Source of the DNA: Devosia sp. Root413D1
GTDB lineage: Bacteria > Pseudomonadota > Alphaproteobacteria > Rhizobiales > Devosiaceae
Assembly: GCF_001425235.1 (NCBI RefSeq)
Contig: NZ_LMEA01000009.1
Span: 356,327-420,326 of the forward strand
Length of the DNA stretch: 64,000 nt
Direction: 5' to 3'
Shown: positions 4,696 through 62,113 of the stretch, in pieces
Layout: every line of letters starts with the position of its first letter
Position numbering within the stretch: position 1 is the first letter of the stretch
The notes under the pieces: generated by a model
The model's database searches: none
Told to the model about the DNA's origin: nothing
What the model saw: the letters and a program-made list of their open reading frames with translations, nothing else
Translations under genes and position numbers: made by a program

Positions 4696-4701
4696 TTATG
4701 T

Positions 4702-4745
4702 CGCGCTTTCGAACCGGAAAAGTCTGCAACTTTTCCTGAAAGCAC
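4702..4745 (+). repeat. 44-bp palindromic repeat, copy 1
   Basis: An imperfect palindrome centred on AAAAGTctgcAACTTTT fills the gap between the exporter ATPase and adaptor genes. Its reverse complement recurs at 6257-6300 and shares the core AGGAAAAGTTGCAGACTTTT. The two copies flank the adaptor gene in opposite orientations. It may act as a hairpin between the two cistrons. Confidence 0.75.
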
Positions 4746-4762
4746 TCCAGGAGGTCGCTGCC

Positions 4763-6256: not shown

Positions 6257-6300
6257 AGCGCGATCAGGAAAAGTTGCAGACTTTTCCGGTTCGATCGCGC
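6257..6300 (-). repeat. 44-bp palindromic repeat, copy 2 (inverted)
   Basis: Begins immediately after the adaptor stop codon. It is the reverse complement of the element at 4702-4745 through the core, with GCGCGAT...ATCGCGC outer arms that extend the palindrome. It could fold as a 3'-end hairpin of the secretion operon, though no T tract follows. Confidence 0.75.
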
Positions 6301-6442
6301 GACCAAGCAAAGACTCTCGCGGCATACGACTTTCAGCCTACTCCTCGTTGCCCGATCGGCGGTTGCCAACGCTGCCTCGGGCTGTAACCTGACGTACGTC
6401 CCTCGGGGAGGATCGGGGGACAAATAACGAGGGAGAGGCGAC

Positions 6443-7597: not shown

Positions 7598-7631
7598 GGG
7601 GGACGGCCACGATGCTCTGAGCGTGTGGCCA

Positions 7632-7767
7632 CCCCCACCCTTGATCCCTCCCCACAAGGGGGAGGGAGACGCGTACTGAAGCTGCGGTTCTGGCTCTCCC
7701 TCCCCTTGATGGGGAGGGCAGCGCAGCTTGGCGGCTCTGCCGCCTAGCGCAGCTGGGTGGGGCGGGG
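7632..7767. repeat. C-rich intergenic palindromic repeat, copy A1
   Basis: Two arms (CCTCCCCACAAGGGGGAGG and CCTCCCCTTGATGGGGAGG) lie in a larger inverted arrangement between two convergent dehydratase genes. It includes an AGCGCAGCTTGG segment seen again inside the gene at 51237-53102. It is one of eight intergenic copies of this family and could serve as a bidirectional terminator. Confidence 0.75.
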
Positions 7768-7786
7768 CGGTAAGATCGGAGCTGTG

Positions 7787-9112
7787 CTACCGCACCAAAG
7801 CCGGCCGCTTCGCGTCAAACGCCCACCCACCGATCAGATACTGCATCGCCGCCGCATCGTTGCGGCTGCCTGCCGGCAGCGAGCGATACCGGGCATGCGC
7901 CGCCTCGAGCTGCGCCTCGTCGATCTCCACCCCGAGGCCCGGCCGTTCCGGCACGGCGACGTGCCCGTCGCGGATCAGCGGCGGCTCCACCGTCAGCCGC
8001 TGCCCGTCCTGCCAGATCCAGTGCGTGTCGAGCGCGGTGATCGTCCCTGGCGCCGCGGCGCCGACCTGGGTGAACATCGCCAGCGAGATATCGAAATGGT
8101 TGTTCGAGTGGCTGCCCCAGGTCAGCCCCCAGCGCTGGCAGAGTTTTGCCACGTCGATCGAGCCGCGCGGCGTCCAGAAATGCGGATCGGCCAGCGGGAT
8201 ATCGACGCTGCCCAGCGTGATGGCGTGTCCCATCTGCCGCCAGTCGGTGGCGATCATGTTGGTCGCGACCTTCACCCCGGTGCGTAGCCGGAACTCCGCC
8301 AGCACCTCGCGTCCGGAAAAGCCGGCCTCGGCGCCGCACGGGTCCTCGGCATAGGCGAGGATCGGCTTCAGCCGGCCCGCGAGCTTCACCGCTTCCTCGA
8401 GCGACCACGCCCCGTTCGGATCGACCGTCAGCCGCGCCGCGGGGAAGCGCTCGGCCAGCGCCTCGATCGCCTCGGCTTCGGCCTCGCCGGCCAGCACGCC
8501 GCCTTTCAGCTTGAAATCGCGAAACCCGTAACGCGCCTCCGCCGCCTCGGCGAGCCGGACGATGGCGGCGGGCGTCAGCGCCACCTCGTCGCGCAGCCGG
8601 TCCCAGTCATCGCCACGCGTCGCGGCGCGATAGCCGAGCGGCGTTATGCTGCGGTCGCCGACATAGAACAGGTAGCCCAGCATCTCGACCCGGTCGCGCA
8701 CCTGGCCGTCGCCGAGCAGCTCGGCCATCGGCACCCCGAGGAACTGTCCCATCAGGTCGAGCAGGGCGCATTCAAGTGCTGCCACCGCATGGATGGTGAT
8801 GCGCAGATCAAAGGTCTGCGCCCCGCGTCCGCCCGCGTCCCGGCTGGCGAAGGTCTCGCCCACCTGCCGCAGCACCGAGCGATAGGCGCCGATCTCGCGT
8901 CCGACCACCAGTTCGCGGCTATCCTCCAGCGTTTTCGCGATCGCCTCGCCCCCCGGCACCTCGCCCAGTCCGGTCCGGCCGGCGCTGTCGGTGAGGAGCA
9001 CGATGTTGCGGGTGAATAGTGGCCCATGCGCGCCGCTCAGGTTGAGCAGCATGCTGTCCTCGCCGGCCACGGGCACGACGCGGAGGGCGGTGATGATGGG
9101 GGTGGCGGTCAC
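7787..9112 (-). CDS. gudD: Glucarate dehydratase
   Basis: Converts D-glucarate (often also L-idarate) to 5-keto-4-deoxyglucarate, an enolase-superfamily reaction in the cytosol. The sequence follows E. coli GudD nearly end to end: [23 protein letters not shown] (catalytic Lys region), [11 protein letters not shown] and EDPCGAE (metal ligands), [12 protein letters not shown], and [14 protein letters not shown] (catalytic His). I chose the GTG at 9112 (441 aa, family about 446) because GAGG lies 6 nt upstream and homology begins there; an in-frame ATG at 9148 would extend into the adjacent repeat. The upstream fused permease and binding protein are on the same strand, suggesting one aldarate or uronate unit. 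Confidence 0.93.
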
Positions 9113-9143
9113 GTTTGCCTCAAGACAAGCTGGTGCGTGGGGC

Positions 9144-9246
9144 TCCACCCCACCCTTGATCCCTCCCCATCAAGGGGAGGGAGACATTGTGGCGCGGGCC
9201 GTGGTTCTCCCTCCCCCTTGTGGGGAGGGATCAAGGGTGGGGGTGG
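9144..9246. repeat. C-rich intergenic palindromic repeat, copy A2
   Basis: The arms CCACCCTTGATCCCTCCCC and its near-exact reverse complement at 9220-9246 enclose about 60 bp. It lies between gudD and the fused permease gene, so it is carried on their common transcript and could form a long hairpin there. Confidence 0.75.
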
Positions 9247-9269
9247 GCAACACGCACCGATCGAGCGAA

Positions 9270-13957: not shown

Positions 13958-14088
13958 GGTGCGGGAAGATCACCCCCACCCCTGTCCCCTCCCCGCAAGG
14001 GGGAGGGAGACCAAAACACCAGCGCCGGTACGAGCGTCTCCTCCCCCCTTGCGGGGGAGGGACAGGGTGGGGGGTGTCTTCCCGCACT
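13958..14088. repeat. C-rich intergenic palindromic repeat, copy A3
   Basis: A very long inverted repeat: GTGCGGGAAGA plus CCCCCACCCCTGTCCCCTCC on the left, and the matching reverse complement ending near 14088, each arm with an internal GGGGAGG palindrome. It separates two convergent genes and could act as a bidirectional terminator. Confidence 0.8.
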
Positions 14089-14121: not shown

Positions 14122-17100
14122 TCAGTTGATGGTCGGGAGCTTCGGCCGCAAGGGCTCGAGTTCCAGGATCTGCCCTGCCGTGCAAGCCCCCGGCTTGCCG
14201 GTCAGCGGCGGGATGCAGACGCATTGACCGCGGCGCAGGCGGCTGTCGTCCGGGCAGGCCGGGGTCTGTTCCTCGACGATATCCGGCCGGCAGTTGCCGG
14301 GCTCGCCGCTGGTGCCGGGCAGGCAGACGCACTGACCGCGGCGCAGGCGGCTATCGTCGGGGCAGCTCGGCTCCTCGATCACCTCGGGCCGGCAATTGCC
14401 CGGCTTGCCGAGTGTGCCCGGCAGGCAGACGCATTCGCCGCGGCGCAGGCGGCTGTCATCCGGGCAGCTCGGCTCCTCGATCACCTCGGGCCGGCAATTG
14501 CCGGGCTTGCCGAGCGTACCCGGCAGGCAGACGCATTCGCCACGGCGCAGCCGGCTATCGTCCGGGCAGGTCGGTTCTTCCACCACGTCCGGCCGGCAAT
14601 TGCCCGGCTTGCCGTGGGTGTCCGGCAGGCAGACGCATTCACCGCGACGCAGGCGGCTGTCGTCGGGGCAGACCGGCTCCTCGACCACATCAGGCCGGCA
14701 CTTGCCGGGGTTGCCATGCGTGCCGGGCTTGCAGACGCACTCGCCATTGACCAGCCGGCTGTCGCGGAAGTCGCAGCTTGGCGTCGACTGGTTGGGTTCG
14801 CACTCGCCCGGATCGCCATGGGTCCCCTTGTCGCAGACGCAGGCGCCGCTATCGGTCAGGTGGCTGTCGGCGGGGCACTTCGGCGCCGTCGGGCGCGGCG
14901 TGGCGCATTGCTTGCCGTTCCACTGCGTGCCCGCTTCGCAGCAGTCGCCATTCGGCATCACCTGCTTGACCGGGCATTGCTCGGGCTCGGGCTCCGCGCC
15001 CGGCCGGCAGACGCTGGCCGGCAGCTGGGCTGCGGCCGAGGCGGTGTACTGCACCCCCTCGTCGCTGTGCAGCACGGCGGCCGAGATCGACGCATTCACC
15101 GTGTTGACGATATTGCACTGACCCGCCACCGCCACATCGGTCGGGATGTGGATGGTGATGGTCATCTCGGTGTATTTGCCCACCGGGATGGTCTTGAACG
15201 TCGACGAGCAGTGCATGTCGTTGTCGGTCGTCGGGACGCACGTCCAGTTGCTGGAGGACACAAAGCTCGTGCCGTCCGGCAGCAATTCGTCGACTTCGAC
15301 CGTGCCGATATAGGGGTCGGGTCCGGTCGATGTGGCCCTGACGGTGAAGGTCGCGTCGTAGCCGTCGCCGGCCTTGACGGTCTTGATCGCCGTCTTGGTC
15401 AGCTTGAGGCTTGGCGGGTCGCAATACACCGCGACCGGGCCGGGCCCCAGGTTGATGAACAGCTGCGGCACCTTCTGGGTGGCCTGGGCGAGGTAGCCCG
15501 GGTCGCCGCCGGAAGCCGGATTGGTGATCAGCACGGTGTTGATCACGTTGCAGTCGGCTAGCGTCACGCTGTTGGGATTGACGTGCGACGTCGCCTGGAA
15601 AGTCCAGTTCGACAGCGCCGGCAATGCCGCCGGACGGGTGCAGAGCCACTGATCCACCCCCGAAGGAACGCAAGCGGCGCCCGAGAAGGTCGTGGGCTTG
15701 TCGTTGAAATCCTTGACCTGGATCGGTCCCGGCTGCGGGCCACCGCCATAGTTGAACACGGTGATGTCGAAATCGCAGAGCCAGTCCTCGCTGGATGGAT
15801 CCGACGCACAGCCGGTGGCGGTCTTTTGGATGTTGAGCTTGGGCAGGCCCGGCGCGATGCAGGCAGGATTGGGCAGCGCCTGGCCGACCGTGTCCGAGTC
15901 GTTGCCACCGGGATTCTGTGGTGAACCCGGGTTCGGCGCCAGGATCGACAGGTTGTTGGTCACCGAGCAGACGCCCGGCCCATCCGGAATGAAGGTGTGG
16001 AACGGCACGACGATCGGCGTTCCCGGATTGACCCCCACCGCTCCCGGCGGCGTACAGGTGGTGACCGCCGCCCCGGTGCAGAATGGGTACATCAGGGTGA
16101 GGAAGTTGGTGGTCACCCCCGCCGAGCTGTCAACGAAGGACAGCGGCCCCAGATAGGGCGTGGTGCCGACATTGCTGATCGTCATCCGCCATTGGCAGAG
16201 ATAGCCATTCACCCCGTAGAAGAAGGGCGAACAGCCGAGCGCCGTCTTCTGCATCTTGAGGTCGGTATCGAGCGCCGGTCCGGCACAGGCCGGATCCGGG
16301 ATCGGCGCGGTGACCGCGTCGAAGTCGTTGCCGGCGACGAGGTTGGTCGGCGAGCCCCCGGCGGGCGCGCTGATATTGGCCTTGTTGTCGAGGCCGCAAA
16401 GCGCCGGCAGGATGCCCTTGGGGACATGCGAGGTCACGAGGAACCCCGAGGTCCAGCCGGGCGGCACGTTGACCGGTGGCGCGACGATATTGCAGGTCAG
16501 CACCGGGCCGGCCTGGACGCAGGCCCAGGGGCCCAGCGTCGTCGCCGGAGCGTTGATACCGAGCGTGTCGGTGACGGTGATCGGCCCGGAATAATTGCCC
16601 GGCCCGGCATTCTGCACCAGCACCACGTACGAGCAGTTCCAGGTCGCGCCGGCGTCGGCGCAACTCGGCGCGGCGATCTTTTCGAGCAGCAGGTCGCTGC
16701 CGGGTGCCGCAAAGCAACCGGGCGCCTTGATGCCCGCCACGCCGATGTTGAAATCGTCGCTCGGATCGTCGTCATTGCCCCAGAACCAGTCGAGTTCGGC
16801 TGCGTTGGCGAGGTGGCAATAGTTCACCAGCGCCTTGGGCAGCTTCACCACCTCGTGCAGCACCACCCCGTCGCCGGGATAGAGCAGCACCGGGCCGGTG
16901 ACGCACTGATAGGCGGTCGGTCCGGTCGGGCCGCACGACCATGGCGGCTGCGGCCAGAAGCTCATGCTGGCGCCCGGATTGTTGGCCGGCAGGTGATCGT
17001 TGACCACCACCGGACCCCAATAGGGCACGCTGCCGGTGTTCTCGACCCGGATGGTGAAGTTGCACCACCAGTTGGCGCCGCCATCGACGCAGAAGAACGG

Positions 17101-21928: not shown

Positions 21929-22098
21929 GGATACCCTCTCCCGCTTGCGGGGGAGGGGGGACCGCGCGAAAGCGTGGTGGGAAGGGGGTGCCCCACGCAC
22001 GAATGGTAGGCGGACTGGGCAGAGGCCAGTGTTTGCGGCACCCCCCTCCCACCAGCCTTTCGGCTGGTCCCCCCTCCCCCGTAAACGGGAGAGGGTGC
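21929..22098. repeat. C-rich intergenic palindromic repeat, copy A4
   Basis: A long inverted repeat: GGATACCCTCTCCCG on the left and CGGGAGAGGGTGCGCC on the right, with inner arms CCGCTTGCGGGGGAGG and GTGGTGGGAAGGGGGTGCC matched at 22038-22080. It fills the gap between convergent genes and probably terminates both. Confidence 0.75.
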
Positions 22099-44552: not shown

Positions 44553-46648
44553 GGCTAACTATCAAGGCAAAGCTGGCGGCCGTGTTCGGTGCCGTCATCG
44601 TCATGTCGGGCGTCAGCATGCTGATCGCGCTGCAGAACCTCGACAGGCTGAACCAGTCGCTCGACACAATCGTCAACGTCCGTGCCGCCAACACCATGGC
44701 GATGATGGAGGTGCAGACCCACCTCGAGTCGATCGGCTCGCGCCTGCGCGCCATGATCATCAGCGATGATGCCGCCGAGATCGCCGACTATGTGGAGAAG
44801 ATCGGTGAGGATGGCGCCGAGATCGAGAAGTACTCGGCCTTCCTCAACGACAACGTCAAGGATGCCCAGGTCCGCGAGAGCCTCGATGAGTTCGCCGCGC
44901 AGACTGCGGCCTACAAGGTCGGCGCGCAGAAGGTGATGGATCTCGCCTCGCTCAACACCGATACAGAGGCGCTCGAGATCACCACCACCGATGGCAGCAG
45001 CGCGCTCGGCACGCTCGAGGAGGCGATGACGGCTCTCGTCACCGGCCTCTCCAACCGCGTCAGCGCTGGCGACCTCTCGGCCTTTCCCGCCTTCAAGGCG
45101 GCGTCCGAGGCCTTCATGACCATCACCGATGCTTTCCGCCAGCAGCGCAACGTGCTGCTCGCCTCCTCGCTCCCGGCCAAGCAGGACGAGTGGTATGCCG
45201 ACTACAAGGCCGGCATCGAAGGCCTGGCCCAGCTGTTCCCCACCCTCGAGCGCACCGTTCCCGCGACGGAAGCCGGTCTGCTGAAAACCGCTCACGAGGC
45301 TTATGACGGCCTGGTCATAGCCATGGACAAGGCGGTCGGGGTCTCGATCCAGCGCGGCGATTACAACGCCCTGTTGGCTGCCAATGAAGCGGCTGAACTG
45401 CGCCGGGTTGCCAATGCGGCGATCGACACAATGATCGTGCGCAACAAGGAGCTGCTCAACGCCGCCGACGATGAGGCCCGCCAGCTCTATGAGGGCGCAA
45501 TGACCCTGCTGATCGGCCTGCTCATCGGCTCGGCCGTCATCGCCATCCTCGCTGCCCTGTGGATCGTCTTCTCGATCTCGAAGTCGCTCGGCGCCGCGCT
45601 TGGTCTCGCCAATGCGGTCGCCGGCGGCGATCTAAGCGCCGAAGCCAAGGTCAAGTCGAACGACGAGATCAAGGATGTGATCGACGCGCTCAACCTGATG
45701 ACGCAGAAGCTGCGCGAAGTGGTGAGCGAGGTCACTGCTGCGGCCCGCAACGTCGCTTCCGGCAGCCAGGAGCTGTCGGCTACCGCCGAGCAACTGAGCC
45801 AGGGCGCCACCGAGCAGGCCTCCTCGACCGAAGAGGCGTCCGCCTCCATGGAAGAGATGGCCTCGACCATCAAGCAGTCGGCCGACAACGCCAGCCAGAC
45901 CGAGAAGATCGCCCGCCAGTCGGCCGCCGATGCCAATGCCTCCGGCGAAGCCGTCGGCAATGCCGTCACCGCCATGCAGACCATCGCTGAAAAGATCATG
46001 GTGGTGCAGGAGATCGCCCGCCAGACCGACCTGCTCGCGCTCAACGCCGCGGTGGAAGCCGCCCGGGCCGGCGAACATGGCCGGGGCTTCGCGGTGGTAG
46101 CCTCCGAGGTGCGGAAACTCGCCGAACGCAGCCAGGCTGCCGCCGCCGAGATTTCCACCCTCTCGGTCGACACGGTGAAGGCGGCGCGCTCGGCCGGCGA
46201 CATGCTGAGCAAGCTCGTGCCCGATATCCGCCGCACGGCCGAACTGGTGGAAGAGATTTCCGCCGGCTCGCGTGAGCAGAATGCCGGCGCGGCGCAGATC
46301 AACACCGCCATCCAGCAGCTCGACAAGGTCACCCAGCAGAATACCTCGGCGGCCGAGGAAATGTCGGCCACCTCCGAGGAGCTGGCCAGCCAGGCCGAGC
46401 AGTTGCAGAGCGCCATCAGCTACTTCCGCATCGACCAGGGCCAGCTGGCCCGCGTCGATGCCGCCAACGACCGCGCCCCGCAGCGCGCCCGTCGCACCGC
46501 CCAGTTGCAGGAAGAGATCCTCAGCAAGGCGCCGCACCTGACGCGCAAGAAAACTCCGGCCCGCGCCACCGGCGGCGGCTTCGACCTCGAGCTCGATGAC
46601 ATCGGCGACGATCTCGACAGCGAATTCACCCGCCGCGGCACTGCCTGA
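44549..46648 (+). CDS. Methyl-accepting chemotaxis protein (receptor 1)
   Basis: 699 aa. TM1 (about 9-27), a long helical periplasmic ligand domain (about 28-317), TM2 (about 318-344), HAMP (about 345-395) and a signalling hairpin with tip [20 protein letters not shown]; Gln/Glu-rich methylation-type helices flank it. The GTG start overlaps the CheW stop (GTGA). The C-terminus carries a 60-residue linker and a conserved tail GFDLELDD...DSEFTRRG shared with receptor 2; it is not the NWETF-type CheR tether. Confidence 0.93.
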
Positions 46649-46667
46649 TCCGACACCGACTGAGTCC

Positions 46668-46693
46668 GGCCGGGGTGTTCGCTCGCCCCGGCC
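46668..46693 (+). terminator. Stem-loop after receptor 1
   Basis: GGCCGGGG (46668-46675) and CCCCGGCC (46686-46693) pair perfectly with a 10-nt loop. It starts 20 bp after the receptor 1 stop. No T run follows, so it is probably a stabiliser or attenuator. Confidence 0.5.
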
Positions 46694-46736
46694 AATCGCA
46701 GAACGCCGATCTTACTGACTGCAGATTTTGGGCAGA

Positions 46737-46754
46737 GGACCGCAGAAGCGGTCC
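46737..46754 (+). promoter_or_regulatory. Leader hairpin before receptor 2
   Basis: GGACCGC-AGAA-GCGGTCC: a perfect 7-bp stem with a tetraloop, ending 22 nt before the ATG of receptor 2. It could affect translation or mRNA stability of receptor 2. Confidence 0.4.
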
Positions 46755-46776
46755 GTGGGCTAGGGGGCCACGCCAA

Positions 46777-48591
46777 ATGAGATTGACCATCAAGACCAAG
46801 CTGATCGCGGCCTTCGCCACGGTCATCGTGCTCAGCGCCATCAGCATGGCCATTGCGCTGCTGAACCTCGGGGCGCTCAACAGCTCGTTCAACGCCGCCA
46901 TGGAAGGCAACGTCAAGCGCATCCAGCTCGCTGCCGAGCTGGAGACCTCGACCCTCAAAGTGGCGCGCGACGAAAAGAACCTGATCCTCACCCAGGACCC
47001 CGGCGCCATCACCGCGCTGGTCACCCAGATGGACGCCGAGATCGACGCCGTCGACGCCGATACCGCGAGACTGCGCGAACTCTCCAGCGAGGTCGGCAAG
47101 CCACTGGTCGACAAATTCGGCGCCGATTATGACGCCTACCTGGTCCAGCACGCCGAAGTGCGCCGCCTCTCGACCCTCAACCTCGATGCCGAAGCCTTCG
47201 CGCTCGCCGCCGGCAAGGCCGCCGAAGTCCGTGCGGCTTCGGTGGCCCGCCTCGATGAGATCGTCGCGCTCAACGACACCCAGCTCGACGAAGCCATCGC
47301 CAACGCCGAAGCCCTCTACGGCTCGTCTTCGCTGCTGCTGACCGCGCTGCTGGTCGGCTCGACCATCATCGCCATCAGCGCTGCCGCCATGATCATCATC
47401 GGCATCAGCCGCGGCCTCGGCAAGATCAGCCAGGTGGTCAGCGCCGTCGCTCTTGGTGATCTCGACCAGAACATCGAGATCAAATCCAATGACGAAATCA
47501 AGGATCTCGTTGCGACCGTCAACGTGATGACCGCCAACCTCCGCGCCACCGCCGCCATCGCCGACCGCATCGCCGATGGCGACCTCACCGTCGAGCCGCA
47601 GCCACTCTCCGACCGCGACACGCTCGGCCTCGCGCTGCAGCGCATGGTCGAAAAGCTGCGCGATGTCATCGCCGAAGCCATCACCTCGGCCAACAACGTC
47701 TCCGCCGGTTCGCAGGAGCTCTCCGCCACCGCCGAGCAGTTGAGCCAGGGCGCCACCGAACAGGCCTCATCCACCGAAGAGGCGTCCGCCTCGATGGAAG
47801 AGATGGCCGCCACCATCAAGCAGTCCGCCGACAACGCGCTGCAGACCGAAAAGATTGCCCGGCAGTCCGCTGCCGACGCCATCGCTTCGGGCGCCGCGGT
47901 CAACGACGCCGTCGCCGCCATGCAGACCATCGCGCAGAAGATCATGGTGGTGCAGGAAATTGCCCGGCAGACCGACCTGTTGGCGCTCAACGCAGCGGTG
48001 GAAGCTGCGCGCGCCGGCGAGCATGGCCGCGGCTTCGCCGTCGTTGCCTCCGAGGTACGCAAACTCGCCGAGCGCAGCCAGGCTGCCGCCGCCCAGATCT
48101 CGACCCTCTCCGACACCACGGTGAAGACCGCCCAGTCGGCCGGCGAGATGCTGACCCGCCTGGTCCCCGACATCCAGCGCACGGCCGAGCTGGTCGAGGA
48201 GATCACCGCCGGAGCGCGCGAGCAGAATGCCGGCGCCAGCCAGATCAACACCGCCATCCAGCAACTCGACAAGGTCACCCAGCAGAACACCTCGGCGGCC
48301 GAGGAAATGTCGGCCACCTCGGAGGAGCTGGCGAGCCAGGCCGAGCAGTTGCAGAACGCCATCAGCTACTTCCGCATCGAGGCGAGCCGCGAGGTTGCTG
48401 CCGAAGCCACCAAGAAGCCGGCGGCAAAGCGCAGCAACGCCATCCGCAGCGAGATCATGGCCAAGGCCCCACACCTGAAGCCGCGGCCCCGTTCGGCCGG
48501 CAAGCCGAGCAGCAATGGCGGCTTTGATCTCGATATCGACGATGCCGGCGACGAGCTCGACAGCGAGTTCACCCGCCGCGGCGCAGCCTGA
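46777..48591 (+). CDS. Methyl-accepting chemotaxis protein (receptor 2)
   Basis: 604 aa. TM1 (about 8-28), four-helix-bundle-type periplasmic domain (about 29-185), TM2 (about 186-211), HAMP region and a signalling hairpin almost identical to receptor 1. It ends in the same tail pattern, GFDLDIDD...DSEFTRRG. The start is ATG 46777; the frame is open further upstream but TM1 begins here. The periplasmic domain is shorter than in receptor 1, so the pair probably senses different ligands while sharing output. Confidence 0.93.
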
Positions 48592-48602: not shown

Positions 48603-49055
48603 ATGGCCGAGAGAGCCCAGTACGTGACGCTCGGGGTCAATGGCGAGTTGTTCGCCGCCCCGGTGGACAAGGTCCAGGAGATCCTCGAGATGCGTCCGGT
48701 GGCGCGCCTGCCGCAGGCCCCCGCCAACCTGCTCGGGATGACCGATGTGCGTGGGCAGGGCATCCCGGTGCTCGACCTGCGCCTGACCCTCGGGCTGCCG
48801 GAAGCCGAGGACACCGAGAACACCCGTATCGTGGTGCTCAATGTCAGCGGCGGCGCCGGCCCGATGACCGTCGGGCTGCGCACCGACCGGGTCTTCGAAG
48901 TCACCGTGCTCGACGCCGCAGAGCTCGAACCGCCCCCGGCCATTTCGGGCAACTGGCGCGGCCACGCCGTCGCCGGCATCGGCCGCCGCAACGGCAGCTT
49001 CGTCACCGTGCTGGATCTCGACCGGTTATTGGGCAGCGTGGCTGAGGCGGCGTGA
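48603..49055 (+). CDS. cheW: Chemotaxis coupling protein CheW (second copy)
   Basis: 150 aa CheW fold: YVTLGVNGELFAAPVDKVQEIL start, MTDVRGQGIPVLDLRL (conserved RG loop) and a C-terminal VLDLDRLL. GAGGAGAG precedes the ATG, 11 bp after receptor 2. It differs clearly from the first CheW in sequence, so it may serve a particular receptor or the array edge. Confidence 0.93.
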   Translation: MAERAQYVTLGVNGELFAAPVDKVQEILEMRPVARLPQAPANLLGMTDVRGQGIPVLDLRLTLGLPEAEDTENTRIVVLNVSGGAGPMTVGLRTDRVFEVTVLDAAELEPPPAISGNWRGHAVAGIGRRNGSFVTVLDLDRLLGSVAEAA

Positions 49056-49070
49056 TGTTGGGATTGACTG

Positions 49071-49192
49071 CCACCCCCCTCCCAACCTCCCCCACAAGGG
49101 GGGAGGTGCCCGCCAGTGCGCTGGGCACGACCGAGCCACACGCTCAACTCTTCACCTCCCCCTTGATGGGGGAGGCCGGGAGGGGGTGGGGC
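49071..49192. repeat. C-rich intergenic palindromic repeat, copy A6
   Basis: CCACCCCCCTCCCAACCTCC on the left matches GGAGGCCGGGAGGGGGTGG on the right, with inner CCTCCCCCACAAGGGGGGAGG and CCTCCCCCTTGATGGGGGAGG. It lies inside the chemotaxis operon between the second CheW gene and cheR and is probably transcribed. Confidence 0.75.
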
Positions 49193-49223
49193 AGCGCGCG
49201 CCAGAACTCTCCGAGGGCGTCCA

Positions 49224-50093
49224 ATGCCTAACCTCGCCCAGAAGCCCCAGCCCGACGACGCCGACGATCATCTCAGCGCGCTCGATTTCGGCCGTATTGC
49301 CAAGCTCATCGAAGGCGAGGCCGGTATCAAGCTGCCGCCGGGCAAGCGCCTGATGGTCGAGGGCCGGCTGCGCAAGCGCATGCGAGCGCTCGGTCAGCCC
49401 GATTTCGCCAGCTATTGCAGCTTCCTGTTCAAGCAGGGCGGGCTCGAGCGCGAACTCACCCATCTGATCAACGCCGTCACGACCAACAAGACCGACTTCT
49501 TCCGCGAGGCCGAGCACTTCGATTTCCTGGTCGAGCACATGGTGCCCGCCCTGCTCAAGACCCGCGAGCGCAACCCGCTGCTGAAGATCTGGAGCGCCGC
49601 CAGCTCCACCGGCGCCGAGGCCTATACCCTCGCCATGGTGCTCGACGACTTCGTGGCCCAGCGCAACGACTTCCGCTTCGCCATCCTCGGCACCGACATC
49701 TCCACAGCCGTGCTGGCGCAGGGGCGTCGTGCCGTCTACCCGGCCGAAATGATCGCGCCGGTGCCGCCCGAAATGCAGGCGCGCTACCTCATGCATGCGC
49801 GCCGCCCCGGCGCCCGTCGCGAGGTGCGCATGGTGCCCGAGCTCCGCCGTCAGGTGCGCTTCACCCATCTCAACCTGATGGACCAGAGCTATCCGTTCGA
49901 TCGCGATGTCGACGTGATTTTCCTCCGCAACGTGCTGATCTATTTCGAGAAGGCCGATCAGGATGCCGTCGTCGCCCGCCTCGTCGATCACCTCCGCCCC
50001 GGTGGCTACATCGTGCTCGGGCATTCGGAGTCGATGATCGGCACCTCGCTCGCCGTGCGGCAGGTCGCCCCCGCCGTGTTCCAGAAGCTCTGA
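49224..50093 (+). CDS. cheR: Chemotaxis receptor methyltransferase CheR
   Basis: 289 aa SAM-dependent methyltransferase acting on receptor glutamates. N-terminal helical domain (about 15-95), then the methyltransferase fold with [15 protein letters not shown] (SAM site, about 127-141), ILGTDIS and [13 protein letters not shown] 49224 follows a GAGGGCG site. Between the second CheW and CheB genes, as expected for an adaptation pair. Confidence 0.94.
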
Positions 50094-50103
50094 GATCCCC
50101 CCG

Positions 50104-51240
50104 ATGTCCGCCTCCGCTGAGCCCGACCGCAAGATCCGTGTGCTGATCGTCGACGATTCCGCCGCCGTGCGCACCACGCTCTCGGACATCATCTCGTCCG
50201 ACCCCGAGCTCGAAGTGATGGCGACGGCGGCTGACCCCTATATCGCCGTCGAGCGGATCCGCGCCGAAGTGCCCGATGTCATCATCCTCGATATCGAGCT
50301 GCCGCGCATGGATGGCATCACCTTTCTCAGGAAGCTGATGTCGCAGCGTCCCATCCCGGTGGTGATCTGCTCGTCGCATGCCGGCGAGGGCAGCGACACG
50401 CTGATCGAGGCGCTGGAAGCGGGCGCCGTCGATGTGGTGCAGAAGCCGCGCGTCGATACCGCCCAGTTCCTGCACGATTCCCGCGTCCGCATCTGCGAAG
50501 CGGCCCGCTCCGCTGCCCATGCAAGGCTCAAAGGGCGCGTCCGTCCCCCGGCGCCGAAACTCGCAGTCGAAAAGAAACTCACCGCCGACGCAGTGATCCC
50601 GCAGCGCTCCGCTGCCCGCGCCGCCTCGGCTGCCGCCTCGATGCCCACCACGGCGCCGGTGATCTGCATCGGCGCCTCCACCGGCGGCACCGAGGCGCTG
50701 CGCGATGTGCTCGAGGCGCTGCCCGCCACCACACCCGGCATCGTCATCGTCCAGCACATGCCTGAGCGCTTCACCGCCGCCTTCGCCCGCCGCCTCAATG
50801 GCCTCTGCCAGATGGAGGTGAAGGAAGCCGAGGATGGCGATGTGGTCGAACCCGGCCGCGTGCTGATCGCCCCGGGCAACCACCATATGTCGCTGCAGCG
50901 CTCGGGGTCGCGCTACACCGTCAGCATCGTCGACGGGCCGCACGTGTCGCGCCATCGCCCTTCGGTCGACGTGCTGTTCCGCTCCGCTGCCTATGCCGCC
51001 GGCAAAAACGCGCTCGGCATCATTCTGACTGGCATGGGCGACGACGGTGCCCGCGGCCTGCTCGAAATGAAACAGGCCGGCGCCGCCACGCTCGCCCAGG
51101 ACGAAGAGAGCTCGATCGTCTTCGGCATGCCCAAGGAAGCCATTGCGCTCGGCGCCGCCGACAAGGTGGTCTCGCTCCGCCGCGTCGCCACCGAAATCAC
51201 CACCTACGCCGCCCGTGCCCCGCAAAAGGACACCGCATGA
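50104..51240 (+). CDS. cheB: Chemotaxis receptor methylesterase CheB
   Basis: 378 aa. Receiver (about 10-130) with phosphoacceptor D63 ([10 protein letters not shown]), an Ala/Pro-rich linker, then the methylesterase with catalytic S192 (GASTGG), H218 (QHMP) and D314 (GMGDDG). It removes receptor methyl groups when phosphorylated by CheA. Its stop overlaps the start of the next gene (ATGA), coupling it to the coiled-coil protein. Confidence 0.95.
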
Positions 51241-53102
51241 CCTCGTCCCCTGCCACTGAGCTCTCCGTTATCCTCTCGCGCGTGGCGGGGGAGGGGGCCC
51301 ATGCAGAGCATGGGGGAGGGGGCGGACAGACTCTCAGTAGTGCTGACGCAGATCTCCTCTCGCCCCGCATTCTCACCCTCGCCGCCGACCTCGCGGCCCC
51401 CCGCGACGCCATCGATGGCGCCTTCGTCGCCGTTGGCGGCCGGCTTGCCGAGTGCGCCGAGATCCTGTCGCGCCTCACCGACACCTTCGAAACCCTGCCG
51501 GTCGATCTCGAAGGTCCGGACCTCGCCGAGGCCACCGATCGCCTCGCCGTGGTCGGCCGCCGTGCCGGCGAGATTTCCGTCACGCTCGGCGCCGAGCAGG
51601 CCGATCTCAACCGCCTCGTCGACGCGCTGCGCGGCGCTTCGCACCCGATCTCGGAGCTGCGCCGTACCGTCAAGATGATGGGCATCGTCGCCATCAATGC
51701 CCGCGTCGTCGCCGCCAGCGTCGTCACCGACACCGAGGATTTCGGCGTTTTCACCACCGACATCGCGCAGCTGTCGGACTCTGCCACGACCACCATCCAG
51801 CGCTTCTCGCGCACCTATGAAGCGCTCAGCATCGTCGTCGGCGAAGCCGCCACCGCCCGCGCCAGCTTCGAGCAGGCGCACCGCGATACGCTCTCGACTC
51901 TCGCCACTGAGCTCGAGCGCGACCTCGCCGAAGTCACCGAGCAGCGCCTCACCTCGGTCCGCTCCAGCGCCGTCACCGGCCAGATGTCCCGCGCCATCGC
52001 CGACAAGGTCGCCACCACCGTCATGGCCCTGCAGGTCGGCGACGCCACCCGCCAGCGCGTCGAACACGTCGAAGCCGCCCTCCGCGATCTCTCCACCCTT
52101 ACCCTCCCCCGCGGGGCGGGGGAGGGGGCCCACGCTGAGCATGGGGGAGGGGGGAGCTCGACACTGAGTGACCCCATCACCGAACTGCAGCGCCAGCAGC
52201 TCGCCGGCGCGCGCGAAACCCTCGTCTTCGAAATGGCCTCTGGCGCCGAGGCGCTCACTCAGCTGGCCGACGACGTCGAAGCGGTGCTCGAGCATGCGCG
52301 CCAGGTCTACGGCTCTGCCGAGAACCGCTCGGCCCTCTCCGAACTGCACAGCGCCGTGCGCCGCGCCGTCACCGTGCTGCGCGATTGCGAAAGCGAGCGC
52401 GAAAAACTCGATCGCGTCGCGGTCGCCGTCTCGGAGACAGTCGGCGTCCTGCTCAACCACGTCGAGGCGGTGCAGGAGATCGAGTACAAGATGCGCCTCG
52501 TCTCGCTCAATGCCGCGGTCAAATGCGCCCAGCTCGGCCCGCGCGGCCGTGCTCTCGACGTCATCGCCCAGCAACTCAGGACCCTCACCGGCGAGACCGT
52601 GGTTTCGGCGCATGAGGCGGTCGAACGGCTGAACGAAGCTGCCCGCTTCTCCGCCGCCTTCACCAACGCCACCGGCGCCGGTGCCGGCCGCGTTGGCGAT
52701 CTGGAGCGCGAGGCCGCGGCCTCGCTCACCCAGCTCGAAACCGTCGGCATGCGGATGAAGAAGGCGCTGGTCGAACTCTACGACGACGGCCCCAAGGTCG
52801 CCGACCGCCTGCACCAGGCCGTCGACAGCCTCGCCAACCACGGCGCCATCTCGGAAGCCCTGAGCGATATCGAACTGGGGATTGCCGCTCTTATCCTCCC
52901 TCGCGGGGCGGGAGAGGGCGACCAAGCGCAGCTTGGTGGAGGGGAGCTCCCCTCCATCGAACTGACCGAGTTCCTCGCCACCCTGCGCAAGCGCTACACC
53001 ATGGACGCCGAGCGCCGCGTCCACGACGCCTTTACCGGCATCGAAATCGCCCCCGAACCCGCCGCCGACACCGACGCCGCCCTGGACGACCTGTTCTTCT
53101 GA
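51237..53102 (+). CDS. Coiled-coil chemotaxis protein with CheZ-like motif and in-frame repeat insertions
   Basis: 621 aa, mostly helical, no membrane segment. Two MCP-like hairpin segments are visible ([11 protein letters not shown] around 148-158; [12 protein letters not shown] around 421-432). [14 protein letters not shown] (265-278) resembles the catalytic D-x-T-x-Q region of CheZ phosphatases, and the C-terminus ALDDLFF resembles the CheY-binding tail of CheZ. It is translationally coupled to CheB, so an adaptation or CheY-dephosphorylation role is plausible but inferred. Three short segments (about 12-30, 288-307, 552-570; [14 protein letters not shown] type) are translated palindromic repeats found elsewhere between genes. 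Automatic annotation may call it MCP-like. Confidence 0.75.
51269..51324 (+). repeat. In-frame intragenic palindromic repeat, copy B1
   Basis: About 56 bp including GGCGGGGGAGGGGGCCCATG, coding residues of the type [17 protein letters not shown] near the N-terminus. Aligns with B2 and B3 in the same reading frame. Confidence 0.8.
52100..52155 (+). repeat. In-frame intragenic palindromic repeat, copy B2
   Basis: About 56 bp: CCCTCCCCCGCGGGGCGGGG followed by GAGGGGGCCCACGCTGAGCA, coding [17 protein letters not shown]. Placed between two helical parts, just after the D-x-T-x-Q helix. Confidence 0.85.
52890..52947 (+). repeat. In-frame intragenic palindromic repeat, copy B3
   Basis: About 58 bp: TATCCTCCCTCGCGGGGCGG then GAGAGGGCGACCAAGCGCAG, coding [17 protein letters not shown]. 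The AAGCGCAGCTTGG part also occurs in the intergenic copy at 7632-7767. Confidence 0.85.
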
Positions 53103-53344
53103 ACGATTGCGTCCAGGTCAGGACGCTCGGCCCCCACACCCACCTTGGATGACATCGCGTGTGGGGTGATAGCTGCGATCAGCTCGACCACCGGTACTCC
53201 CAAGCCTCCCGCTGGTCCACACCCGGGGAGATCACCGTCCAACATGTGATTTGACGTAGCGGGAACTGGTCCGACATATATGCGTTTACACGTATACAGG
53301 GGCGGCGGGCCTATCGTTACGTGAGTCTGTCGGGGGCCAATCCG
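53103..53344. other. Intergenic region between chemotaxis and LacI units
   Basis: 242 bp. GCGTCC-AGGTCA-GGACGC (53109-53126) forms a 6-bp stem just after the chemotaxis gene and may end its transcript weakly. The region 53260-53310 is more AT-rich and may hold a promoter for the small gene that follows. No other feature is seen. Confidence 0.4.
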
Positions 53345-53563
53345 ATGAATGACTTGGATAACCATGAGCTCGTCGAGCTCCTGGCGATGTTGCGCCGCAG
53401 CGACGAGAACGTCGATACGCAGCGCCTTACCAACTTCTCAGATGCGACGCTGCTCGCGGTCATCAACCCGTTGGGCGACGACCGGCTGGTGACCAACGTG
53501 CCGAGCTTCGTCGCAGTCCGCGCGGAACTGCGTCGTCGCGGCCTCTTACCGCGCGACCACTGA
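53345..53563 (+). CDS. Small hypothetical protein
   Basis: 72 aa, soluble, charged, two or three predicted helices and no cysteine; sequence starts MNDLDNHELVELLAMLRR. A GTG at 53321 would extend it by 8 residues; the ATG at 53345 has a GGGGG stretch upstream. Unrecognised family. Codon use resembles its neighbours, so it is probably real, but it is short. Confidence 0.45.
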   Translation: MNDLDNHELVELLAMLRRSDENVDTQRLTNFSDATLLAVINPLGDDRLVTNVPSFVAVRAELRRRGLLPRDH

Positions 53564-53654
53564 CAAAAACTCATGGCCGGTCAGCAGGCTGGCGCCGGCG
53601 ATGAGCACCAAAATCCACGCATCCTGGGCCATCTAGACTCCGGCGTTAACTTCC

Positions 53655-53666
53655 GGTAACGTTCCC
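53655..53666. promoter_or_regulatory. LacI-type operator upstream of the LacI gene
   Basis: GGTAACGTTCCC, one mismatch from a perfect 12-bp palindrome with the AACGTT centre typical of LacI-family operators. It ends 32 bp before the LacI start, and a perfect version lies at 54792-54803. Likely autoregulatory. Confidence 0.55.
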
Positions 53667-53698
53667 AATAGATGCCGGGAACGGCACGGGAGGGTTGC

Positions 53699-54742
53699 AT
53701 GGGCAGACGGCCCACCATCATTGATGTGGCAAGGCTTGCCGGCGTGTCGAAGAGCACTGCCGCACGCGCCCTCTCCGATTCCCCTGATGTCAACGACGCC
53801 ACCCGGGAAAAGGTGCGCAAGGCCGCCATCGCCAGCGGCTACGAGCGCAACCACCTTGCGGTCGGCATGCGGTCCGGCCGCTCGGGCCTGTTCGGCCTCG
53901 TCATCCCCGATATCACCAACCCGTTCTGGGCCGAGGTCGCCCGCGGCGCCCAGGATATCGTCGGCGAGAACGGCGCCTCGCTCTTGGTCTTCTCATCGGA
54001 CTGGGACCACGATCGGGAAGCCAGCCACCTGCGCGCCTTGCGCCAGGCCCGGGTCGAGGGCGCCATCGTCAACCCGGTGTCCGACAATGCCGAAGATTTC
54101 GGCCGCTTCGGGGTGCCTTTTTCACTGATCGGCTCCAGCGCCGAGCGCTTCCCCGATACCCCAAGCATCGGCTCGGACATCCGGCAGGCCGTGCGGCTCG
54201 GCCTCGATCATCTGGTCGCCCGCGGCCACGCCGCGCCCGCCCTGATCCTTGGTCCGAAATCCCGCCTGGCTCGGGCCCGCTTCCTGCGTTCGGTGCATGA
54301 GCACTGCCTCGAGCGTGATATCGACCCGGCCGTGCTGCTGGTCGAAGATGGCGACTATACCTTCGAGGGTGGCCATGCCGCCATGCAGCGGCTGATGGCG
54401 CGCCAGCGCAGCGGCCACCTCACGGTGTTCTGCGCCAACGACCTGATGGCGCTCGGCGCCATGCTGGCAGTGCGCGAAGCCGGCCGCGAGTGCCCGCGCG
54501 ATGTCTCCATTCTCGGCTTTGACGGGGTGCCGGCCGGCGCCTTCTCCTGGCCCGGTCTCACCACCATCGAGAAGCCGGCGCGTGAGCTTGGCCGCCGCGC
54601 TGCCCAGGCGCTGTTCGATGAAATCGCCGGTCGTCCGCAGGATGGTCGCACCTATTTGCCGTGCCGCCTGATAGAGCGAGGCTCACTCGCCGATCTGACG
54701 GTACAAACGCCCCTGCGCGTCGCAGGAGCGGGGAGGAGCTAG
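53699..54742 (+). CDS. LacI-family transcriptional regulator
   Basis: 347 aa. The N-terminal DNA-binding domain reads RRPTIIDVARLAGVSKSTAARALS (helix-turn-helix plus hinge), followed by a periplasmic-binding-like ligand domain. ATG 53699 follows GGGAGG at good spacing; ATG 53672 has no site and adds nine non-family residues. It opens an operon of sugar importer, hydrolases and CoA-handling enzymes and presumably represses it; the effector is likely a sugar or sugar derivative. Confidence 0.9.
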   Translation: MGRRPTIIDVARLAGVSKSTAARALSDSPDVNDATREKVRKAAIASGYERNHLAVGMRSGRSGLFGLVIPDITNPFWAEVARGAQDIVGENGASLLVFSSDWDHDREASHLRALRQARVEGAIVNPVSDNAEDFGRFGVPFSLIGSSAERFPDTPSIGSDIRQAVRLGLDHLVARGHAAPALILGPKSRLARARFLRSVHEHCLERDIDPAVLLVEDGDYTFEGGHAAMQRLMARQRSGHLTVFCANDLMALGAMLAVREAGRECPRDVSILGFDGVPAGAFSWPGLTTIEKPARELGRRAAQALFDEIAGRPQDGRTYLPCRLIERGSLADLTVQTPLRVAGAGRS

Positions 54743-56989: not shown

Positions 56990-57018
56990 CCGCGAGCGCC
57001 ATCTCGTCAAACCCACCG

Positions 57019-57098
57019 GCCCCCACCTCCCCCTTGATGGGGGAGGCAAGCGAAGCTTGTCGCGTCAGCGACTTAGCGAAGCTCGGAGGGGGTGGGGC
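57019..57098. repeat. C-rich intergenic palindromic repeat, copy A7
   Basis: CCCCACCTCCCCCTTGATGG with a matching GGAGGGGGTGGGG about 60 bp on, and GCAAGCGAAGCTTGTCGCG in the middle. Lies between the small membrane protein and binding-protein genes, hence within the operon. Confidence 0.7.
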
Positions 57099-59872: not shown

Positions 59873-61972
59873 ATGCCCCTGACCACTACCGAAATCTTCG
59901 ATCGCATCTATGCCGGCTTCATCGGCAAGGCCATCGGCGTCCGCCTGGGCGCGCCGGTCGAGCCGACCATCTGGAGCTATGACCGCATCCGCAACACCTA
60001 TGGCGAGGTCACCCAGTACCTGCGTGACTTCAAGAATTTTGCTGCCGACGACGATACCAATGGCCCGGTCTATTTCATCCGCGCGCTGCGCGATTACGGC
60101 TTGAAGGCCACCGCTGCCGATGTCGGCCGCACCTGGCTGAACTATGCCGCCGAGGAACACGGCATGTACTGGTGGGGCGGCTTCGGCAATTCCACCGAGC
60201 ACACCGCCTACAAGAACCTCAAATCCGGCATGGAGGCGCCGGAGTCCGGCTCCATCGCCACCAACGGCACCACTGTCGCCGAGCAGATCGGCGGCCAGAT
60301 CTTCATCGACAGCTGGGGCTGGGTGAACCCGGGCAATCCGACGCGTGCCGCCAAGATGTCGGCCATGGCGGCTTCCGTCGCCCATGACGGCGACGGCCTC
60401 AACGGCGCCCGCTTCTGCGCCGCCGCCATCGCCCAGGCCTTCGTCGCCAAATCCATCGACGAGATCGTCGAAACCGGCCTCTCGACCATCGATGCCAGTT
60501 CGACCTACGCCCGCGTCGCCCGCGCCGTCATCGACTTCCACAAGGCCAACCCGACCGACTGGCGCCTTTGCCGCGACATGCTGACCGCCGATTGGGGCTA
60601 TGACCGCTATCCCGGCGTCTGTCACATCATCCCCAATGCCGGCGTCACCGTGATGGCCATCCTCTACGGCGCGGGCGAACTGACCCGTACCGCCGAGATC
60701 GCCACGATGGCCGGTTGGGACACCGATTGTAACGCCGGCAATGCCTGCGCCATCGTCGGTACCTTCCAGGGCGTACAGCCGAGCTGGGACAAGTATCGCA
60801 AGCCCATCAACGACTTCGTCATCGCCTCCGGCGTCATCGGCACGCTCAACGTCGTCGATATCCCGAGCTTTGCCCGCGAGCTCACCGTCCTCGCCCTCCG
60901 CCTCGACGGCAAGGAGCCGCCGGCGCCGTGGGTCGAGGATTTCGAGCGCCGTGGCGTGCGCTTCGATTTCGACGCGCCGGGCGCCACGCATGCCTTCCGC
61001 ACCGAGCCGTTCAACCAGATCGAGGTGAAGTCGGCGACCGGCAAGCAGGGCCCCAACTCGCGCGGCGCGCTCGAAGTGCTGCTCGATCGGCTCGAGCGCG
61101 GGCAGGGCGGTCGCATCTTCTGGAAGCCGTTCTACCGTCGTGCCGATTTCGACGACGAGCGCTACCGCCCGATGTTCACTCCGCTCGCCGATGCCGGCCA
61201 GACGGTGAAGTTCAAACTGCAGCTCGACCCCTGGAACGGTGACGGTAACCTTCGCGTCGCCCCCTATGTGCGCCGCGCCATTTCCGGCGAGATCGTCGAG
61301 ACCGGCGCCTGGCACGTCCCGAGCTCCGCGGGCTGGCAGGACTACGAGTTCGTGATCCCCGAGGGCGACGAGGCGATCGACGAGATCGGCGTCTTGGTCG
61401 AGTATTTTGGGCGCCTGAAGTTCCTCGGCCGGCTCTACCTCGCGGAGTTCTCGGTGTCGGGGAAGGGCAGGCTCGCCATCGACCCCAGCACCGAAAAGCA
61501 GGAATGGGGCGGCATCACCCGCTTCACCTGGAACCGCGGCCACTGGTCGCTGCAGGACGGCGCCATCCACGCCCACACCGCCGAGGACGCCGACGCCTGG
61601 ACCGGCAATGGCTATCTCCGCGACGTCACCGTCAGCGCCGACCTGACCCCGCTCGCCGGCAAATCCCACCTCGTCGCCGCCCGCGTCCAGGGCACGTCCC
61701 GCTTCTATGCGGCCGGCTTCGAGAATGGCGAAGCCGTAATCCTGAAGCAGGACCATGGCACGACGGTACTGGCGCGGGCGCCGTTCGCGGCGAAGCCGGG
61801 CGAGGCGCACAAGCTGGCGCTTACTGTGGTGGGCGATAAGCTGACGCTCAGCGTCGACGGCAAGGAGCTCGTTTCGGCGACCGACGGTCAGTTCCGCTAC
61901 GGCCAGGCCGGTTTGCGCATGGCCTCGGCCGGCCGGATGACTGTGGCGCGGCTGGAAGTGGTCGAAGTCTGA
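59873..61972 (+). CDS. ADP-ribosylglycohydrolase-family protein with C-terminal beta domains
   Basis: 699 aa. The N-terminal half (about 5-340) has the ARH metal motifs DDDTNGP (59-65) and GWDTDCNAGN (281-290). A beta-rich middle region (about 345-560) and a C-terminal lectin-like part (about 580-699, FTWNRGHWSLQDGAIHAHT to the end) follow; these look like carbohydrate-binding or concanavalin-type folds. The double size is unusual for the family, normally about 300-400 aa. No signal peptide, so cytosolic. A glycoside substrate is inferred. Confidence 0.8.
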   Translation: MPLTTTEIFDRIYAGFIGKAIGVRLGAPVEPTIWSYDRIRNTYGEVTQYLRDFKNFAADDDTNGPVYFIRALRDYGLKATAADVGRTWLNYAAEEHGMYWWGGFGNSTEHTAYKNLKSGMEAPESGSIATNGTTVAEQIGGQIFIDSWGWVNPGNPTRAAKMSAMAASVAHDGDGLNGARFCAAAIAQAFVAKSIDEIVETGLSTIDASSTYARVARAVIDFHKANPTDWRLCRDMLTADWGYDRYPGVCHIIPNAGVTVMAILYGAGELTRTAEIATMAGWDTDCNAGNACAIVGTFQGVQPSWDKYRKPINDFVIASGVIGTLNVVDIPSFARELTVLALRLDGKEPPAPWVEDFERRGVRFDFDAPGATHAFRTEPFNQIEVKSATGKQGPNSRGALEVLLDRLERGQGGRIFWKPFYRRADFDDERYRPMFTPLADAGQTVKFKLQLDPWNGDGNLRVAPYVRRAISGEIVETGAWHVPSSAGWQDYEFVIPEGDEAIDEIGVLVEYFGRLKFLGRLYLAEFSVSGKGRLAIDPSTEKQEWGGITRFTWNRGHWSLQDGAIHAHTAEDADAWTGNGYLRDVTVSADLTPLAGKSHLVAARVQGTSRFYAAGFENGEAVILKQDHGTTVLARAPFAAKPGEAHKLALTVVGDKLTLSVDGKELVSATDGQFRYGQAGLRMASAGRMTVARLEVVEV

Positions 61973-61983
61973 TGCTGGTGCGT

Positions 61984-62113
61984 GCGGCCACCCCCCTCCC
62001 AACCTCCCCCACAAGGGGGGAGGTGTCTGCCGGTGCGTGGGGCACCGTCGCGCCAACAACTCGATCGGCACCTCCCCCCTTGTGGGGGAGGTTGGGAGGG
62101 GGGAGCCACACGC
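61984..62113. repeat. C-rich intergenic palindromic repeat, copy A8
   Basis: CCACCCCCCTCCCAACCTCC matches GGAGGTTGGGAGGGGGGAG on the right; inner arms CCTCCCCCACAAGGGGGG and CCCCCCTTGTGGGGGAGG. Its right arm is purine-rich and ends just before the GTG of the CoA-transferase gene, so it probably supplies the ribosome site. Confidence 0.8.

Follow-up and report, generated by a model that had tools for sequence, protein, structure and literature searches.

A 621-residue open reading frame in Devosia sp. Root413D1 contains one palindrome three times, each time on the coding strand and in the same reading frame. These copies are insertions confined to one Devosia clade and are probably a REP-like mobile palindrome kept as in-frame linkers, with related palindromes tied to genes for DUF559 proteins as the putative spreader. 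The insertion behaviour is already known; the repeat family and the triple insertion in one gene appear to be new. The association of such palindromes with DUF559 genes is the more important result. The features of the host gene and its surroundings are listed below, numbered within the window (the whole stretch of 64,000 nucleotides that was analysed).

49224-50093, + strand: cheR (PF01739, PF03705)
50104-51240, + strand: cheB (PF01339, PF00072)
51237-53102, + strand: host gene of the inserts, the ORF after cheR-cheB, 621 amino acids
51252-51341, + strand: insert 1, a complete single element (5' module 51252-51269, core 51270-51326, 3' tail 51327-51341)
52089-52169, + strand: insert 2 (partial 5' module, core 52101-52157, 3' tail ending at 52169)
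52893-52949, + strand: insert 3, core alone, with a different type of second hairpin (70.2 bits, covariance model)

The ATG of the host gene overlaps the stop codon of cheB (ATGA), and several orthologues also begin with ATGA. The sequence-only reading had called it a chemotaxis gene. The place after cheR-cheB agrees with that name, but the MCPsignal match is sub-threshold (23 bits against a cut-off of 34.6) and an NCBIfam profile search of the protein returned no matching model; the label is therefore owed to position and to the sub-threshold match.

The covariance model was built from a seed of ten sequences, inserts 1-3 among them, and scores the two-hairpin cores of inserts 1 and 2 at 76.2 and 73.2 bits. 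The core of the element (∼57 nt) consists of a first hairpin, a second hairpin and GGAGGGGG; the complete element has ∼90 nt. The first hairpin has an 11-bp stem and a 3-nt loop (TCCTCCCCCGC-nnn-GCGGGGGAGGG). In the second hairpin the sequence varies and the pairing is kept (examples are ACCAGCC-GAA-GGCTGGT, ACCATGC-GCA-GCATGGT and ACCACCC-GAA-GGGTGGT). Extra modules were recognized by eye on genomic copies, GCACCGGCCTCTCCGTG on the 5' side and, for example, CAGACTCTCAGTCGC on the 3' side. Insert 1 has both, with CACTGAGCTCTCCGTT 5' and CAGACTCTCAGTAGT 3' of the core; the module borders of inserts 1 and 2 were set by eye against genomic copies, and a search of the same kind revealed no end modules on insert 3. 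Among the hairpins caught by pattern in the loci examined, the second-hairpin type CCCAYGCNGAGCATGGG was confined to inserts 1 and 2 of the host gene and their orthologues, which hints at an exchange between these two inserts. RNA-fold z values of inserts 1, 2 and 3 are -2.36, -1.38 and -1.38. An Rfam search of positions 49000-54000 gave merely miRNA matches, far under their gathering scores.

The sequence-only reading had placed the segments at 51269-51324, 52100-52155 and 52890-52947, which is correct within a few bases; its lengths of 56-58 bp hold for the cores, whereas the end modules extend segments 1 and 2 to about 51252-51341 and 52089-52169. Their mutual likeness was confirmed. With segment 2 alone as the BLAST query, segment 1 was matched at E 1.9e-14 and the best copy elsewhere in the genome at 7.9e-13 (100 matches in the genome at E ≤10), and the three segments form the direct-repeat family D10 (81% and 65% identity over 74 nt). 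As had also been read, they share one frame and leave the protein uninterrupted.

The expectation that the segments would be missing or variable in orthologues was borne out. In the tree of 21 rows, inserts, whole or decayed, are present in six rows, all from one clade, and 15 rows are without such peptides, as judged by eye; with the insert columns omitted, the six form one clade with ultrafast bootstrap/SH-aLRT values of 99/99. The tree omits L055, L057, L022 (G058), L023 (G003) and L061, which is that fragment again; in L019, where the start codon was misassigned, residues 1-30 were trimmed. Besides the present genome (G000), the insert sites are occupied by intact, diverged or shortened inserts in G013, G011, G014, G015 and G001, of which G013, G011, G015 and G001 appear to be Devosia MAG-137, Devosia sp. 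66-14, ZB163 and an SCN18 MAG. The inserts of G001 are barely recognizable and G015 has none at site 3; insert 2 is near consensus in G015 (83.8 bits) yet decayed in G011; insert 3 is clear in the present genome only, and G013 has it shortened. In D. submarina, D. psychrophila, D. ginsengisoli, Root436 and the other orthologues compared, the linkers are shorter and unrelated or the start codon lies past site 1.

Inserts 1 and 2 are under relaxed selection. Four comparisons among G000, G013, G011 and G014 put their dN/dS at 0.42-1.48 and that of the remaining gene at 0.08-0.14, values that rest on few codons (19 to 26 per insert). Between G000 and G013 it is 0.45 for insert 1, 0.42 for insert 2 and 0.08 for the rest of the gene, and the three comparisons among G000, G011 and G014 gave 0.46-1.48 against 0.13-0.14. 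The difference narrows when G015, a more distant relative, is compared (G000-G015, 0.33 in each insert against 0.26; G015-G014, 0.33 and 0.74 against 0.22). For insert 3 the value is 0.22-1.62, on 15-20 codons and with a doubtful alignment.

An AlphaFold2 model of the 621-residue protein, calculated from an alignment of 14 sequences, is nearly all helix (mean pLDDT 78.6). Among segments of at least three residues, pLDDT falls below 50 solely at residues 1-36, 293-307, 557-571 and 605-621, and three of these four stretches coincide with the inserts; low values are partly to be expected there because few aligned sequences cover those columns. The predicted fold thus agrees with the linker placement proposed from the sequence, and the orthologues, the genomic copies and the model together support the notion of a mobile or spreading repeat tolerated as linker peptide.

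Covariance scoring was applied to the best 150 of ∼10,000 first-look candidates in each of G000, G014 and G011, and to the best 92 per genome in the survey of the genus and beyond, so that decayed intragenic copies could be missed. Among the best 150 in the present genome, model R1 gave 97 matches at E ≤0.01, of which 69 reach 40 bits; an opposite-strand partner lies within 600 bp of 41 of the 69, paired inverted orientation being common. A codon-score scan of the flanks of the 69 copies (in-sample sensitivity 82%; blind to copies with fewer than 15 codons on one side) found coding sequence across inserts 2 and 3 and across one more copy, in the linker of mutL; insert 1 went unscored because the start codon is too near. 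Counting insert 1, four of the 69 copies found are thus in coding sequence, and the host gene is an outlier since it holds three of them. This is the genome-wide count of in-frame copies that had been proposed as a check.

C8:116484-116538, opposite strand: copy in the mutL linker (NCBIfam NF000953, 855.6 bits)

In relatives, an element-like mutL linker was seen by eye, without scoring, in ten of the 17 other rows of the genus; eight are in one reading (PPPxRGGG-like), and G018 and G009 seemingly use another frame (LPRFAGED). None was visible by eye in the remaining genus rows, G010 included, or in G024 and G035 of the family. Among the best 150 candidates each, G014 has 82 copies at E ≤1e-6, with insert 2 of the host gene as the only copy found by the coding scan, and G011 has 60, with the mutL copy as the only one; insert 1 is beyond the reach of the scan in both. 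At E ≤1e-8 and among the best 92 candidates per genome, the family occurs in 17 of the 19 genus genomes and in three of 42 others. A protein search also gave element matches in G012 and G015. A second candidate host gene, a 780-residue open frame at C9:560018, was rejected on codon scores of -0.32 and 0.04.

The sequence-only reading had likened the segments to the palindromes that lie between genes in the window. This holds for copies throughout the genome and for the inverted pair at 21933-22096, the nearest intergenic relative in the window; several other window palindromes (near 7.6, 9.2, 14.0, 49.1, 57.0 and 62.0 kb) belong to different families of similar build. Neither of the refuting cases considered there arose: the segments were not unlike the intergenic copies, and among the orthologues compared no distant genus showed such peptides at these sites.

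7626-9258: another palindrome family, copies on either side of the ORF 7787-9148; matches the flanks of C8:412519 and C9:549659 about equally
13959-14087: palindrome pair; best match, flanks of DUF559 gene C1:524979
21933-21991 (+) and 22038-22096 (-): inverted pair of a sister element type; best match, flanks of DUF559 gene C8:556882
49053-49201: palindrome pair; best match, flanks of DUF559 gene C11:778495
61970-62113: palindrome pair of the C11:778495 type, with one more match at 56996-57047

For inserts 1-3 themselves the best match is to the arms of C11:119900, a DUF559 gene (55, 62 and 58 bits; runner-up 42, 52 and none).

The RAYT domain Y1_Tnp (PF01797) has no match in any of the 19 genomes of the genus, with matches in eight of 61 genomes overall, and RAYT was rejected as the mobiliser on its absence from the genus. 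DUF559 (PF04480) is present in 41 of the 61 genomes, and one inverted palindrome pair in the present genome encloses a DUF559 gene. Arms were tested by reverse-complementing the 200 bp on one flank of a gene and comparing them with the opposite flank, a score of at least 15 counting as arms; from 122 DUF559 matches (summed table), 78 were examined (30 with loci and 48 of the genus) and 75 were testable. Inverted arms were found at 58 of these 75 loci within the order (genus 45/58, family 7/8, order 6/9), but at none of 1094 control positions within them. At class level the count was 19 of 29 (controls 0/630), three loci having 38-50% G+C, and a phylum-wide draw gave 11 of 26 (order 5/13, class 1/1, more distant 5/12; controls 4/598); these two samples are 29 and 26 new loci among the matches listed and are biased to high-scoring domains. 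Other genes had such arms in seven of 523 cases (window 2/44, element-rich loci 4/305, mutL loci 1/75, chemotaxis loci 0/99), one mutL gene apparently being counted twice. Six of 87 other ORFs in DUF559 loci scored, all small and at about the DUF559 position, and are read as shadow ORFs of the DUF559 gene. As a method check, five RAYT loci over 450 bp scored 11 to 20.

Common arms of DUF559 genes read CCTCTCCC-loop-GGGAGAGG, in some cases then with a second hairpin, followed by GGGTGAGGGG. Three dispersed DUF559 paralogues in G014 align arm to arm, from ∼-117/-91 to ∼+374/+440 measured from the gene; outside this span blastn gave no additional match on the same strand at E ≤1e-5, with loci reaching ∼1.6 kb or more on each side. 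The syntenic copies C11:119900 and those in G014 and G011 align well past the arms, as expected. Arm similarity tracks protein similarity (Mantel rho 0.40, p 0.001; 76 of the 77 armed loci, L380 being absent, with 129 syntenic of 2850 pairs removed) and does so within genomes (rho 0.37 over 89 non-independent pairs); common descent beyond synteny may be partly behind the correlation. A genome from a different family of the class, G072, has 17 copies of a single arm type, one pair of which encloses a DUF559 gene; a reversed-pattern control gave none. The protein matches PF04480 at 4.6e-27; in the PDB it resembles 3hrl (6.5e-18) and, at the weak level of 0.037, 3r3p, a mobile-intron protein of the I-Bth0305I homing-endonuclease type. 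Residues E15, D44, E55, D57, H61 and D70 are kept in 75 or 76 of 76 rows. The link between palindromes and DUF559 is statistically firm as an association, and its mechanism is one that we infer; no description of it was found in the accessible text of the open-access literature searched.

RAYTs are thought to act on REPs, and homing endonucleases spread introns. On either model, a DUF559 enzyme acting in trans on the hairpins could copy or insert solo palindromes, and the solo copies, the host-gene inserts included, would be the non-autonomous form of palindrome-DUF559-palindrome modules. Single copies would have entered the host gene in the ancestor of one Devosia clade and been kept because each landed in frame within a disordered linker, out-of-frame or fold-breaking insertions being purged; the second-hairpin pair shared by inserts 1 and 2 and found nowhere else suggests a later exchange between them. 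Several findings count against this explanation. Arms that score are lacking at 17 of 75 and ten of 29 DUF559 loci, and only seven of 18 recognized DUF559 genes scored with ORF borders from our own caller. The phylum-wide counts, in which four of the 598 controls scored as well, and the small dN/dS contrast with G015 likewise weigh on this side. Palindromes and enzyme track each other imperfectly, G006 having four palindrome copies and no DUF559 and G010 three DUF559 genes and no palindromes of the inserts' type. Three insertions in one gene, with mutL as the only other, are more clustered than blind insertion predicts.

DUF559 might instead be a passenger, a selfish nuclease homing into palindromes that spread otherwise, with the arms as landing sites rather than products. 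Its relatives, which include the mobile-intron protein, and a weak match to a homing-endonuclease model fit this idea, as do the great excess of palindrome copies over DUF559 genes and the case of G006; against it, the arms differ among DUF559 proteins and co-vary with them, the window families best match particular DUF559 genes of the same genome and the unit disperses with both arms in G014, and we regard it as the less likely course by a good deal. A slightly smaller chance is given to only one or two insertions, inserts 1 and 2 being related by exchange or copying within the gene: all three inserts share strand and frame, and the CCCAYGCNGAGCATGGG hairpin was met, among those caught by pattern, in inserts 1 and 2 and their orthologues only, but insert 3 is of the other hairpin type with no end modules seen, and inserts 1 and 2 are each equipped with end modules, which could have come along with a copied unit.

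That the inserts are in positive use, as helpful linkers or as mRNA hairpins pacing translation, is improbable. Most dN/dS values of inserts 1 and 2 are under 1, pS of insert 1 against G013 (0.18) is below that of the rest of the gene (0.36) and the folding z values are negative; however, segments 2 and 3 fold only modestly better than shuffled sequence (17 of 200 shuffles are equally good), and inserts diverge or lose pieces in G013, G011, G014, G015 and G001 and are absent from other orthologues. Chance likeness between GC-rich linker codons and palindromes, for which the high G+C content (66%) and Gly-rich linkers could be cited, was rejected as next to impossible on the BLAST matches to separate copies (E 1e-12 to 1e-14) and the end modules in register, with orthologues lacking the inserts. 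Insertion of a REP-like palindrome related to the DUF559 modules thus remains the preferred reading. On balance we also lean, with less assurance, to the wider proposal that DUF559 endonucleases are dedicated spreaders of Proteobacteria-wide RAYT-less palindromic repeats whose solo copies also build protein linkers, as in the host gene and MutL. If this is true, it would be a second, unrelated REP-enzyme partnership, built on a Vsr/homing-type nuclease. A nuclease gene that again and again lies between palindromes of its own type, and that disperses along with them, would open the spread of the repeats to direct experiment. The host gene is a traceable case, in which six related genomes document how three in-frame insertions were kept, diverged and were pruned, and it shows a route from selfish repeat to protein linker.

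REPs inside genes are described for several species, some genes having more than one insertion, often in replication and repair genes, and linker tolerance has been proposed for them (Di Nocera et al., 2013, PMC3733652). The in-frame inserts therefore add one more example to a behaviour already on record; the guess of the sequence-only reading that such elements might be undescribed here stands only in that no description was found for Devosia or its repeat family. The main text of that paper contains no occurrence of Devosia, mutL, chemotaxis or DUF559, although the mutL copy fits its repair-gene trend. Like the GTAG and CGTC REPs treated there, the Devosia element is a short, mostly intergenic palindrome, often in head-to-head pairs, with some intragenic copies, hosts that include DNA-repair genes and more than one site in one gene (two in the published case). 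With 69 copies, four of them intragenic, and 41 in opposite-orientation pairs within 600 bp, it resembles REPs and BIMEs in number, placement and pairing. It differs in stem and loop sizes, and neither end tag was seen. An unpaired GTAG tag was absent by eye, as was the RAYT domain from all 19 genomes; CGTC REPs have a CGTC tag, an 8-9 bp stem with AT pairs at its foot, a loop of 4-5 and, for their superfamily, no known transposase (PMC3733652), compared with the tagless 11-bp first stem and 3-nt loop found here.

The likeness to Rickettsia palindromic elements noted by the sequence-only reading holds as behaviour. Both are in-frame palindromes tolerated in protein-coding genes, read in Rickettsia as added peptide in unrelated proteins (PMC3733652, in part), and both hosts are alphaproteobacteria. 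The Devosia element differs in that all but four of 69 copies were found outside coding sequence. The DUF559 loci resemble REP-RAYT modules (REPtrons) in that, to judge from sequence, a dispersed palindrome brackets a small enzyme gene in inverted orientation and also occurs as many solo copies, and the palindrome type varies with that of the enzyme; the enzyme, however, is a Vsr/PD-(D/E)XK-like nuclease and not a Y1/HUH transposase. A Caulobacter DUF559 protein, VsrA, has been assigned to PD-(D/E)XK (PMC12907096). The DUF559 protein is similar in sequence to Vsr and EDxHD homing endonucleases and its conserved acidic and histidine residues are of the predicted active-site type, but unlike those enzymes it is flanked by palindromes, rather than intronic or beside a methylase.

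Several copies of the REP-like element lie at contig ends or next to runs of N in the genome that carries the studied gene (G000; contigs C14, C12, C8, C3 and C10). The element therefore seems to break this assembly, and its copy numbers in G000 are to be read as lower bounds.

The window also contains the following repeats:

1-1610, tandem repeats with a 504-nt unit, 79-92% alike
4700-4747 and 6256-6303, a 48-nt inverted repeat flanking one ORF on both sides
14162-14774, next to a palindrome pair, direct repeats that recur every 102 nt and are 67-86% alike
45685-47930, two paralogous stretches of 300 nt, 78% alike and 1946 bp apart, in the region upstream of cheR

The 504-nt repeats may, at a guess, encode a repetitive surface protein. 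The 48-nt inverted repeat is of a different kind and has a lower G+C content.

Elsewhere in G000, the linker of mutL holds a decayed copy of the element on the opposite strand (C8:116484-116538; L112). As judged by eye, the linker was element-like in ten of the 17 other mutL rows from the same genus, two of these ten perhaps being read in a different frame.

The DUF559 nuclease gene at C11:119900, the arms of which best match the three inserts, was compared across loci L094, L253, L215 and L285. Synteny was found across G000 and two other genomes of the genus (G011 and G014); the relative of this gene in a further one, G015, has different surroundings. Inverted palindromic repeats bracket DUF559 nuclease genes in many Proteobacteria (loci L289-L414).
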